The notes under the pieces are model-generated. The model saw nothing but the letters and a program-made list of their open reading frames with translations, was not told where the DNA came from and searched no databases. From contig NZ_QLTT01000006.1 in the NCBI RefSeq assembly GCF_003269295.1, forward strand, positions 372,001 to 436,000: DNA of 64,000 nt, given 5' to 3'. Within the stretch, counting starts at the first letter, position 1. Each line of letters starts with the position of its first letter. The position numbers and the translations under genes are program-made. The stretch is from Lentzea atacamensis. GTDB taxonomy: Bacteria; Actinomycetota; Actinomycetes; Mycobacteriales; Pseudonocardiaceae. Positions 2,716 through 5,609 of the stretch are shown here, piece by piece.

Positions 2716-3504
2716 TCACACCGGGATGACCGAACCGTTGTAGGTCTGCTTGATGTAGTCCTTGACCTGCTGCGATCCGAGCAGCTCCGCCAGGTCGCGG
2801 ATGCGCTTGTCGTCCTTCAGCTCGGTCCTCGTGACCAGGCCGTTGGCGTTCGGGTTGCCCTCCGCCTTCTCCAGCGCGAGCGAGTCGGTGGCGGGCTTGA
2901 GGCCCGCGTCGATCGCGTAGTTGCCGTTGATCACCGACGCGTCGGTGTCCTCCAGCGACCTGGGCAGCTGAGCGGCCTCCAGCGGCACGAACTGCAGGTT
3001 CTTGGGGTTCTCCGCGATGTCGCGCACAGTCGGTGCGTCGACGGCCTTGAGCTTGATCAGGCCGTTGGCCTCCAGCAGCTTCAGGCCGCGGGTCTCGTTC
3101 GTGGCGTCGTTCGCGAGCGCGACCTTGGCACCCGAGGGCAGCTCGTCGAGCTTCTTGACCTTCTTCGAGTACAGGCCGAGCGGCTCGACGTGGACGGGCT
3201 CGACCCACTCGACCTTGGCGCCGCTCTCCTGCGTGAACGTCTGCAGGTACGGGACGGTCTGGAAGTAGTTGGCGTCGAGCGAGCCGTCGACCAGCGCGGT
3301 GTTCGGCTGCACGTAGTCGGTGAACTCGACGACCTCGATCTTCAGACCCTTCTGCGCGGCGAGGTTGTCGGCCACGTACTTGAGGATCTGCGCGTGCGGG
3401 ACCGGCGAGACGCCGACCTTCAGCGTGTCGGAGGCGCTGCCACCGGACGAGCAAGCGGACAAAACGGTCAAAGCAGCCGCGATCAGGGCAGCACGAATAC
3501 GCAT
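2716..3504 (-). CDS. metQ: Methionine-binding lipoprotein of the MetNIQ importer
   Basis: This NlpA/MetQ-family substrate-binding protein captures methionine outside the membrane and delivers it to MetI. The 262-residue product begins at an ATG preceded by AAGGA. It has a lipoprotein signal with lipobox LSAC, lipidated Cys about residue 18, and the family signatures VGVSPVPHAQIL, EFTDYVQPN and DANYFQTVPYL. It is the last gene of metN-metI-metQ, about 30 bp after metI. Methionine as substrate is inferred from the family, the NIL domain on MetN and the SAM-type riboswitch in the leader. Confidence 0.93.
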   Translation of the reverse strand: MRIRAALIAAALTVLSACSSGGSASDTLKVGVSPVPHAQILKYVADNLAAQKGLKIEVVEFTDYVQPNTALVDGSLDANYFQTVPYLQTFTQESGAKVEWVEPVHVEPLGLYSKKVKKLDELPSGAKVALANDATNETRGLKLLEANGLIKLKAVDAPTVRDIAENPKNLQFVPLEAAQLPRSLEDTDASVINGNYAIDAGLKPATDSLALEKAEGNPNANGLVTRTELKDDKRIRDLAELLGSQQVKDYIKQTYNGSVIPV

Positions 3505-3533: not shown

Positions 3534-4217
3534 TCAGACTGAGGCGTGCCGGCGCCGGTCGGACGCACGAGCGGCACGGGTGAAGCCGAGCTGGATCAGC
3601 GTCGTGAGCACGGCGAGCCACGCCACGGTGCTCCACAGGATCCGGTCGTTGAAGCGCTGGTAGCCCTCGCGGATCGCCAGGTCGCCGAGGCCACCGCCGC
3701 CGATCACGCCCGCCATGGCGGAGTAGCCGATCAGGGCGATCACGGTGACGCCGATGGCGTTGATCAGCGCGGGCAGCGACTCGCGGATCAGCACCGAGCG
3801 AACGATCCTGAGCGTCGAGGCGCCCGTGGTCACCGCGGCCTCGACCACGGTCACGTGCACCTCGGACAGGATGTTCTGCACGAGCCGCCCGACGAACGGG
3901 ATCGCACCCACCGCCAACGGCACGATCACCGCTGTACTGCCGATGGATCCGCCGACGATCAGGCGGGTGACCGACGTGAGCGCGACGAGCAGCACGATGA
4001 ACGGCATCGAGCGGCCCAGGTCGGTGATGAAGCCGAGAACGCGGTGCACCGCGGGGTTCGGCCGCAGCCCGCCCTTGGCGGTGAGCTGCAGCCAAACCCC
4101 GAGGGGAACTCCGAAAGCTGTGGCGATCACGGTGGAGACGCCGACCATGTACAGCGTTTCCCCGGTGGCCTCGACGAGGTAGCTCAGCACGTCGGACCAG
4201 GGTGTAGCAGACCTCAC
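3534..4217 (-). CDS. metI: Methionine ABC transporter permease
   Basis: MetI is the membrane permease of the methionine importer. The product of about 227 residues has roughly five hydrophobic segments and a C-terminal part with EAAVTTGASTLRIV, the coupling (EAA) loop that contacts the ATPase. The GTG start at 4217 overlaps the metN stop as GTGA, indicating translational coupling. A longer reading frame upstream runs into metN and was not used. It lies in the metN-metI-metQ operon and is presumably controlled by the SAM riboswitch upstream of metN. Confidence 0.93.
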   Translation of the reverse strand: MRSATPWSDVLSYLVEATGETLYMVGVSTVIATAFGVPLGVWLQLTAKGGLRPNPAVHRVLGFITDLGRSMPFIVLLVALTSVTRLIVGGSIGSTAVIVPLAVGAIPFVGRLVQNILSEVHVTVVEAAVTTGASTLRIVRSVLIRESLPALINAIGVTVIALIGYSAMAGVIGGGGLGDLAIREGYQRFNDRILWSTVAWLAVLTTLIQLGFTRAARASDRRRHASV

Positions 4218-5212
4218 GCAGCTACTCCCTGCGGGCCCTTCAGGGACCTCTGCACAGCGCCACCGGCCTCGCTGATCCACTCCAGCGCGGAGTCGGACCG
4301 CTCACCGTTCAGGCCGAGGCGGAACCGCGCGACCGGCGTCTCGCCGAGACGCGTGAGACCGCCACCGACGATGTTCAGCTCGACGCCGAACCGGTGCGAG
4401 GCCTCTGGCAGCAGCGCGCCGACCGCGGCGAACCCGACGAGCACGACGTCCGCGACGCGGTCGTAGCTGCTCTCGTTGATCGGGTTGAGGTCCACGGCGG
4501 GCAGCAGCGCCCCGCTCGTGCGGCTGGCCGCATCGCTGACCAGGTCGAGCACCTTGCCGTGCTCGACGACGCGGCCCTGCTCCAGCACGGCGACGTCATC
4601 GCAGATCTTGCGGACCACGCCCATGTCGTGCGTGACGACGAGAACGGTCACACCCAGCTCAGCGCGCGCACGGTCGAGCACCGTCAGCACTGAACCGGTG
4701 GTCTCCGGGTCCAGGGCGCTGGTGGGCTCGTCGGCGAGCAGAACGCTCGGGTTCGCGGCGAGTGCGCGCGCCACGGCGATGCGCTGGCGCTGCCCGCCGG
4801 ACAGCTGGTCGGGGTAGGCGCCGGCCTTGTCGGTCAGGCCGACGAGGTCCAGCAGCTCCCCCACGCGGCTGCGACGCTGCGGTCCGGGGACACCGGCGCT
4901 TTCGAGCGGCAGCGCGATGTTGCCGGCCGCGGTGCGCTGCCGGAGGAGCGAGTCCCCTTGCGGCACAACGCCGATCTGCCGCCTGGCGGCCCGGAGGGCC
5001 GACCCGTCCAGCGCGGTGATGTCCGTGCCGTCGACGCGGATCGCCCCGGAGTCGGGACGCTCGAGCAGCGCCACGCACCGGGCGAGCGTCGACTTGCCGG
5101 CCCCGCTCGGGCCGACGACGCCGAGCACGGTGCCCGCCTCGACGTCGAGGGTCACGCCGTTCAGGGCGTTGACACCCTGGAAGGACTTGGTGAGGTTTTC
5201 GACAGTGATCAC
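4214..5212 (-). CDS. metN: Methionine ABC transporter ATP-binding protein with NIL domain
   Basis: This is the ATPase of the methionine importer. It has Walker A GPSGAGKST, signature LSGGQRQR, Walker B VLLADEPTSALD and a switch His in VTHDMG. Residues about 250-332 form the NIL domain, the regulatory methionine-binding domain of MetN. The GTG start at 5212 has GGAG five bases upstream; an in-frame start 30 bases earlier lacks a good ribosome site. The 3' end overlaps metI by 4 bp. The 220-bp leader contains a SAM-clan riboswitch and a leader peptide, so repression by S-adenosylmethionine is expected. Confidence 0.93.
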   Translation of the reverse strand: MITVENLTKSFQGVNALNGVTLDVEAGTVLGVVGPSGAGKSTLARCVALLERPDSGAIRVDGTDITALDGSALRAARRQIGVVPQGDSLLRQRTAAGNIALPLESAGVPGPQRRSRVGELLDLVGLTDKAGAYPDQLSGGQRQRIAVARALAANPSVLLADEPTSALDPETTGSVLTVLDRARAELGVTVLVVTHDMGVVRKICDDVAVLEQGRVVEHGKVLDLVSDAASRTSGALLPAVDLNPINESSYDRVADVVLVGFAAVGALLPEASHRFGVELNIVGGGLTRLGETPVARFRLGLNGERSDSALEWISEAGGAVQRSLKGPQGVAA

Positions 5213-5335
5213 ATCTGCTCCACGGCTGCGCGCGACGCACACTCGCCTCGTGGGCGGTGCGCGGTCGAAGTTCTGCTCAGGTGTGCGCCCCTCGTACTAC
5301 GGGAGGGCCGCGTCAAAGGACTTGAAGAAGGCGCC

Positions 5336-5422
5336 TTAGACGAGGTGGCGACGACATGCAGAAGCGGTGCGACGGCACTGGTCGACAACTCGACGGCGCG
5401 TCAGCATTCGCGTGGTACCCAT
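5336..5422 (-). CDS. 28-residue leader peptide upstream of metNIQ
   Basis: A short frame starts at ATG 5422 with GGAGG five bases upstream and reads MGTTRMLTRRRVVDQCRR followed by TASACRRHLV. It is Arg-rich with two Cys codons. The pattern LTRR-x-VD-x-x-R-x-x-SA-x-C resembles the short actinobacterial leader peptides seen ahead of sulfur-metabolism genes; that assignment is from memory of the family. It begins nine bases beyond the 3' strand of the riboswitch P1 helix, so its ribosome site is within reach of riboswitch control. The stop lies about 120 bp before metN. Confidence 0.6.
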   Translation of the reverse strand: MGTTRMLTRRRVVDQCRRTASACRRHLV

Positions 5423-5430
5423 GTGATCCT

Positions 5431-5518
5431 CCATCGGTCCTGGCGTTAGCACCTGCCCGCATCCAGCGGGTGGTTGCTGCGACGTCAAAGAGCCAGGTCT
5501 CTCGGTCGCTCCGGATGG
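5431..5518 (-). promoter_or_regulatory. SAM-clan riboswitch (SAM-I/IV type, no P4) controlling metNIQ
   Basis: On the minus strand the 88-nt element shows the SAM-I family core. P1 is CCATC/GATGG and P2 is GCGAC/GTCGC. An AGAG/CTCT stem closes the loop ACCTGG, which can form a pseudoknot with the downstream GCCAGG. The invariant CAGCAACC, a P3 hairpin CCCGC/GCGGG and AGGTGCTAA follow. The 3' P1 strand comes almost directly after the pseudoknot strand, leaving no room for an internal P4; that is typical of SAM-IV and SAM-I/IV variants. The 3' P1 strand overlaps the ribosome site of the leader peptide, suggesting translational control. Confidence 0.82.
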
Positions 5519-5609
5519 CATCTAGCAGTCAACCGGACACACGTTCGGTTGCGCAAGCCAGAATCCGGATCGTTCGACAGATCACACTGTTGGCCGATGG
5601 ATCTCCGGC

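Follow-up and report, generated by a model that had tools for sequence, protein, structure and literature searches.

In Salmonella, the mgtL-mgtA leader combines two signals via a short ORF and Rho; its ligands and the arrangement of its leader ORF and sensor differ from those of the metN leader described here. Actinobacterial cysteine (Cys) leader peptides are reportedly treated by Canestrari in 2020. Both Cys leader peptides and riboswitch-controlled upstream ORFs (uORFs) are already known, the latter from the B12 and Mbox riboswitches of Mycobacterium tuberculosis. The B12 riboswitch of the uPPE2-ppe2 locus is a translational OFF switch on the uORF, translation of which is essential for ppe2, and ppe2 itself is translated via termination-reinitiation at an AUGA overlap (PMC11260477). 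In the Mbox-rv1805A-pe20 locus, a conserved uORF is under the direct control of the riboswitch through its translational platform, and termination depends on Rho (PMC12810186). For mycobacterial Cys leaders, Rho-dependent attenuation was suggested by Seliverstov in 2005 with the caveat that the motifs are not conserved (PMC1262725). In Streptomyces lividans, a leader peptide reported as leaderless, metL, is found upstream of metNIQ (PMC8079986).

Here we analysed a stretch of 64,000 nucleotides from Lentzea atacamensis (hereafter, the window), in which a SAM-I (S-box) riboswitch, a short leader ORF and metNIQ follow each other on the reverse strand. The aptamer spans 5428..5521 (-), with rsmA (6449-5610, (-)) upstream of it, and gave a full-length match to the Rfam covariance model RF00162 in cmscan (model positions 1-108, 58.0 bits vs. 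a gathering threshold of 44.4). By this score the aptamer at 5521-5428 belongs to a SAM-I riboswitch; SAM binding itself is predicted. In the cmscan alignment, the 5' strand of P1 (AUGCCAUC) is located at 5521-5514 (-) and the 3' strand (GAUGGAGG) at 5435-5428 (-), and the latter contains the Shine-Dalgarno sequence GGAGG (5432-5428) of the leader. Watson-Crick pairs in P1 are confined to CCAUC/GAUGG, followed by A.G, G-U and A.G; after GAUGG, the bases AGG complete the leader ribosome site, so that of GGAGG the first two G alone lie within regular P1 pairs. An overlap between the 3' strand of P1 and this ribosome site had been claimed in the initial annotation and is confirmed by the alignment and the checked coordinates, with the pairing covering these two G.

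The leader ORF (5336..5422, (-)) comprises 28 codons and a UAA stop codon (5338-5336), is conserved and shows coding constraint. Its AUG (5422-5420) is placed 5 nt past GGAGG, and the encoded peptide of 28 residues, MGTTRMLTRRRVVDQCRRTASACRRHLV, contains 8 Arg and 2 Cys. Residues 7-24 (5351..5404, (-)) form a conserved core, LTRRRVVDQCRRTASACR, in which R6, D10, R14 and C19 (core numbering) are invariant. The terminal Cys codon UGU, codon 23 (5354..5356, (-)), is the proposed arrest or sensing codon, and the untranslated spacer of 123 nt between the leader stop and metN (5213..5335, (-)) is the proposed region of Rho entry and termination. The annotated Arg- and Cys-rich ORF of 28 codons, said to end about 120 bp before metN, is thus found as described. 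The metN gene (4214..5212, (-), start GTG at 5212), coding for the ATPase of a methionine ABC transporter, starts more than 200 nt from P1; its best NCBIfam match is TIGR02314 MetN (9.3e-80, 268.2 bits, below the equivalog cut-off of 499.7). The longest ORF for the permease gene metI (3534..4280, (-)) matches PRK10782 (2.3e-51, 174.6 bits, cut-off 212), while metQ (2716..3477, (-)), encoding the substrate-binding lipoprotein, matches PF03180, NlpA lipoprotein (1.4e-87), and the MetQ subfamily model (4.2e-57, below its cut-off).

With uPPE2, as far as the available text of PMC11260477 describes it, the metN leader shares the presence of a riboswitch on a uORF and the proposed sign, as translation of the uORF would help the downstream gene. 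It differs in that the riboswitch is of the SAM rather than the B12 type, and in that a Cys-type leader is separated from metN by a gap of 60-227 nt (125 loci retrieved by regular expression), which we consider too long for simple reinitiation, instead of overlapping it at AUGA. The Mbox is a Mg2+ sensor, and the accessible portion of PMC12810186 gives no link to cysteine. The metN leader resembles the actinobacterial Cys leaders of the families NF042933 (Ms5788A), NF042936 (Ms4527A) and NF042934 in being a short ORF with a Cys near its stop codon upstream of sulfur genes. The Cys leaders of PMC1262725 contain runs of Cys codons and are presented, in the part of that paper at hand, with no mention of a riboswitch, whereas the metN leader often contains a single Cys, a fixed core and a SAM-I riboswitch. 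The metL peptide of S. lividans likewise precedes metNIQ, but the peptide as printed in the accessible part of PMC8079986 does not contain the RRxVD core. Searches of open-licence PMC papers turned up no case in which a SAM riboswitch sits on a leader of the Cys type, which is weak as evidence of absence.

To follow the arrangement through the family Pseudonocardiaceae, 120 genomes were searched for MetN at 1e-75, which yielded 108 places in 105 genomes from 41 of 46 genera and none in the remaining 15 genomes. Except for two weak second copies (G133:C49 and G121:C1:4120468), all places were taken in, and these 106 family loci (L078-L183) together with 23 loci of the genus gave, after removal of 5 duplicates, 124 distinct loci. 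Aptamer and leader were present, by motif search or cmscan, in 123 of them, from 123 genomes and 41 genera. A riboswitch that is retained without the ORF had been named in the initial annotation as speaking against its reading; instead, the ORF is kept along with the riboswitch throughout these loci. Only L137 deviates; it holds the second metN of genome G032, and neither motif search nor cmscan detected an aptamer there. The regular expression found 125 entries with aptamer and leader, 120 of them distinct. Three loci that it missed (L177, L178 and L179) were added from cmscan and reading, by which the position of their leader after the aptamer was also established, and are absent from most leader and spacer statistics; L092, L181 and L182, missed by the core expression, were added later. 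All 16 regex loci that were tested by cmscan scored above gathering. Within Lentzea, a SAM-I match was obtained for 24 of 24 genomes and a second match of the metN type for 23 (G017 has only one).

In the 125 regex entries (120 distinct) the leader starts with ATG, GTG or TTG, 2-11 nt past GATGGAG, a motif that was part of the family search pattern, and the expression platform lies on the ribosome site of the leader, not on that of metN. The P1 5' partner CCATC occurs in all 30 flank types listed, with 6 loci not parsed; as CCATC/GATGG is invariant in the parsed loci, P1 is not amenable to a covariation test. Outside the family set, 68 of 111 metN places listed (67 from other families and one additional copy from a genome of Pseudonocardiaceae) were inspected, and none had both SAM-I motifs; 20 of the 68 were tested against Rfam and gave no match. 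One of the 68, L276 of the family f19, has a leader-like ORF, MSRNFGFTRRLAIDLRRHSSALCRWAALTN, before metN with no SAM-I motifs, possibly a riboswitch-free state.

The leader is nearly identical at the DNA level across most of Lentzea. Its mode of evolution was analysed on 100 distinct 18-codon cores connected in a minimum spanning tree. Single-base codon changes were synonymous or nonsynonymous in a ratio of 360:74 in frame, compared to 62:358 and 28:381 out of frame, and stop codons arise in the two other frames. Judged by these substitutions, the leader ORF evolves as a coding sequence. The peptide core reads LTxRRV[VI]Dx[CG]RRTxx[AG]C, with R6, D10, R14 and C19 identical in 97 distinct peptides; the regular expression demanded most of the invariant core residues, yet the core could be identified at every metN locus that has an aptamer. 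Cys-responsive leaders typically are short ORFs that precede sulfur genes and carry a Cys near their stop codon, and C19 is found in all 97 of these regex-selected peptides. While the number of residues before C19 (19-86) and after it (1-10) varies, the distance between core and Cys is fixed, as would be expected if the nascent chain or the codon at this position matters. At core position 12, 42 of the 97 peptides have Gly and 50 have Cys, and in 30 the terminal Cys is the only one; hence one Cys alone is always kept.

All 100 distinct cores encode this terminal Cys by TGT, and none of the 99 tree edges alters the codon; the remaining core codons underwent 7-36 third-base changes each. The metN frames at these loci, partial in many cases, use TGC for Cys 154 times and TGT 8 times. 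The constancy of UGU does not extend to the wider leader family, since the terminal Cys codon is TGC in 15 and TGT in 15 of 30 NF042934 loci; among the leaders of the small genomes of f27, the last Cys is encoded by TGC in 9 of 12. One possible reason for UGU in the metN leader is that wobble pairing slows the decoding of the sensing codon.

The second SAM-I riboswitch of the L. atacamensis genome precedes thrC (TIGR00260, 266.9 bits, cut-off 167.1) and provides an internal control. It belongs to the same aptamer class, and the 3' strand of its P1, GATGAGGA (L001 1619-1626), also covers a ribosome site, in this case that of thrC itself, on which it would act directly. In all 54 thrC-type loci, the aptamer is followed by GATGAGG and immediately by a thrC-like frame with no leader core. 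These loci consist of 24 from the genus and the 30 best-scoring SAM-I matches of the family, which is not an even sample, and the identity of thrC was determined by family search for L001 alone and by reading for the rest. Five of five further thrC loci from a genus, g5, that is probably Pseudonocardia (an identical leader is present in P. oroxyli) agree with the direct layout. Comparison of the two layouts indicates that the same device is used within one family directly on one gene and via a leader on the other. The sequences thus strongly support that the riboswitch before metN controls the leader rather than metN, as the initial annotation had proposed: the arrangement recurs in nearly every metN locus of the family, the leader is under coding constraint, and the thrC loci without exception show the direct alternative.

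At the level of profiles, the leader peptide shows some similarity to known leaders. On NF042933 (Ms5788A Cys-rich leader), residues 6-24 of the window peptide align with positions 6-24 (E = 0.0061, 16.2 bits, cut-off 45), so that it is not a formal member, and of 30 A1 members scanned, 10 gave weak matches (best E = 0.0021). NF042934 (cis_reg_atten, cut-off 27 bits) gave no match with the window peptide and matched 2 of the 30 A1 members (best E = 0.0017). The resemblance to sulfur-gene leader peptides of actinobacteria that had been noted from the sequence therefore holds for the profile comparison but does not reach the curated cut-offs. Leaders associated with SAM-I elsewhere come closer to NF042934, with L304 (29.8 bits), L324 (34.5), L341 (28.6) and L383 (29.3) passing and L300 (23.8), L313 (23.3) and L347 (26.8) remaining below the cut-off. 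This model exceeded its cut-off in 55 of 60 genomes of the family and in none of 14 control genomes. In the genome of the window, leaders without a SAM-I match in cmscan precede a sulfite/nitrite reductase gene (L465) and an SDF symporter gene (L185); among such leaders in the small genomes of f27 (L200-L218), the one at L200 precedes a cysteine synthase A gene (TIGR01139, 456.4 bits, cut-off 350.95) and the one at L202 a rhodanese-domain gene. These relatives place the leader in a cysteine and sulfur context and suggest that it may sense cysteine. A further NF042934 match over cut-off is located at G000:C2:482787-482843 of the same L. atacamensis genome.

The combination of SAM-I and leader is also found before other genes. 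From six g5 genomes chosen for their many matches, 19 non-thrC SAM-I loci (L298-L316) were analysed, 15 of which score above and 4 below the Rfam gathering threshold. A leader core is located just past P1 and the ribosome site in 16 of the 19, including L302; in L316 the leader frame runs on with no nearby stop, and the leader of L311 has no terminal Cys. The remaining three loci (L298, L301 and L307) have no leader core, and for L301 and L307 the layout suggests direct control of a gene for an FAD-dependent oxidoreductase (PF01266) by the riboswitch. Behind the g5 leaders we found genes for SBP_bac_5, luciferase-like monooxygenase, OsmC and GNAT proteins and, in L305, an FAD oxidoreductase. 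The several SAM-I and leader units per g5 genome may thus represent an unexplored SAM-leader regulon that takes in transporter, monooxygenase, OsmC and oxidoreductase genes. At L307, SAM-I (1501-1597, (-)) and SAM-IV (1804-1923, (+)) riboswitches are arranged divergently, about 200 nt apart.

Beyond these genera, a pattern scan that covered at least 117 stretches with at least 80 loci revealed, among the matches listed, SAM-I with a leader in Rhodococcus (three loci) and in two Actinomycetales MAGs, with the aptamers confirmed by cmscan; the MAG leaders precede a sulfite/nitrite reductase gene in one case and a flavin reductase gene in the other. The aptamer motif was present in 49 of 80 loci among the matches listed, as judged by a loose pattern with some clear chance matches, and a leader core was recognised by reading in 11 of these 49. 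As many of the other listed aptamers open directly onto genes, SAM-I is not generally accompanied by the leader.

We consider it fairly probable that the metN locus works as a two-step relay, in which SAM-I would gate the leader and the leader would in turn gate metNIQ; its cysteine and Rho steps we infer from the leader relatives and the spacer. Binding of SAM would stabilise P1 and block the Shine-Dalgarno sequence of the leader, and it is the leader rather than metN whose translation would accordingly cease at high SAM. For this step the architecture is observed, and the function would be that of the riboswitch family. At low SAM the leader, being of the actinobacterial Cys type, would be translated. 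With cysteine or Cys-tRNA scarce, the ribosome would be held at the terminal UGU, the RNA behind it would be shielded and Rho kept off, and transcription would reach metN. If the leader is not translated (high SAM) or is completed and released fast (ample cysteine), the spacer would be exposed and transcription would end before metN, so that full expression of metNIQ would require SAM and cysteine to be low at the same time. The direction of this effect follows from the expectation that methionine import should be shut down when SAM is high, for which leader translation would have to favour and not repress metN.

Conservation of the spacer, which the initial annotation had proposed to examine, did not extend to detail: in most loci the spacer has a C-rich and G-poor start, which is hardly the case in the window, with 21 C and 18 G in the first 60 nt. 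On average, the first 60 nt past the leader stop contain 41% C and 24% G, and C-G exceeds 0.1 in 90 of 119 distinct spacers, the window not among them, and stays under this threshold in 29, whereas the leader, metN and the stretch just ahead of metN have values close to zero. At other places in the loci, a C-G bubble as large as that observed was reached by a median of 5% and a mean of 15% of control windows, and by at most 5% in 60 of the 119 loci. A U-run terminator-like site was not detected in the window spacer, a weak negative since shuffled sequences give a mean of 0.2 such sites. The rho gene is present in the genome of the window. Besides this main rho, the genome has a second Rho-like gene (G000:C1:983568-984530, 472.8 bits, under the cut-off of 509.45).

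If the ribosome is also held at the terminal Cys codon, the relay would be an AND gate, in which SAM-I licenses a cysteine-sensing arrest peptide (core RRxVDxxRRTxxxC) that stalls at the invariant UGU and keeps Rho off, the cassette being reused before several actinobacterial sulfur operons; if it is not, SAM alone would be sensed. The AND gate in this form we put forward tentatively, as less likely than not. The fixed core residues and terminal Cys codon are not needed for a simple shielding of the RNA, and leader relatives without a SAM-I match precede cysteine and sulfur genes, both of which argue against SAM as the only signal. In that simpler case, which seems rather doubtful, translation of the leader would merely shield the mRNA from Rho or maintain the coupling of ribosome and polymerase, and a sensing role of the peptide would be lost or never have existed. 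It would be consistent with the variable position 12, and has a precedent in the riboswitch-controlled uORF with Rho-dependent termination of M. tuberculosis, for which the available text of PMC12810186 names no second signal. The few Cys codons per leader, often one, count against the two-step relay, being weak for classical starvation attenuation.

An unlikely alternative to Rho is attenuation by refolding, in which the position of the leader ribosome would decide between hairpins, with either an intrinsic terminator poor in U or occlusion of the metN ribosome site as the outcome. The spacers do hold stable predicted hairpins, and one of them, CCGTC[CT]...[AG]GACGG, occurs in 23 of 119 distinct spacers, a median of 33 nt past the leader stop, compared to none of 595 mononucleotide shuffles; the hairpins differ, however, among the genera folded, and the window spacer offers no terminator-like site, weak as this negative is. 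In an RNAalifold analysis of 22 distinct Lentzea spacers, the pairs were mostly invariant and one variable helix showed some compensatory change along with mismatches, which did not make a convincing case for a conserved spacer switch in the genus. Control of the metN ribosome site by refolding was rejected, as its predicted openness was independent of the ribosome position (0.277 for naked RNA, 0.280 with a ribosome stalled at the Cys codon and 0.290 at the stop codon; n = 119). It is highly improbable that the leader encodes a small protein which acts after its synthesis, with metN under separate control. The conserved small ORF rv1805A of M. tuberculosis, which is riboswitch-controlled and has a homolog outside the riboswitch context according to the accessible part of PMC12810186, would be a parallel, but the termini of the metN leader vary widely in length, its core ends 1-10 residues before the stop and its relatives lie directly upstream of sulfur genes. 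Hardly any weight can be given to an incidental ORF, conserved on account of RNA structure only, with the riboswitch acting directly on metN: the near identity of the leader DNA within most of Lentzea would fit, but across the family the frame is kept despite free synonymous change, changes in length and a shifting start spacing, and in the window the start of metN itself is far from P1. For the second step of the relay, Rho-dependent attenuation of metN is hence the preferred, though unproven, mechanism, in view of the lack of a visible terminator in the window, the C-rich start of most spacers, the presence of rho, the constant openness of the metN site and the suggestion made in 2005.

If the relay is true, a SAM riboswitch can act one step away from its gene, through a second sensor that is encoded in a peptide. 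With thrC under direct control and metN under control via the leader, one family would offer a naturally controlled pair of the two layouts. The question of how actinobacterial Cys leaders without terminators work, raised in 2005 at the latest, would become directly testable, and the assignment of such a riboswitch to the nearest annotated gene can miss its true first target.
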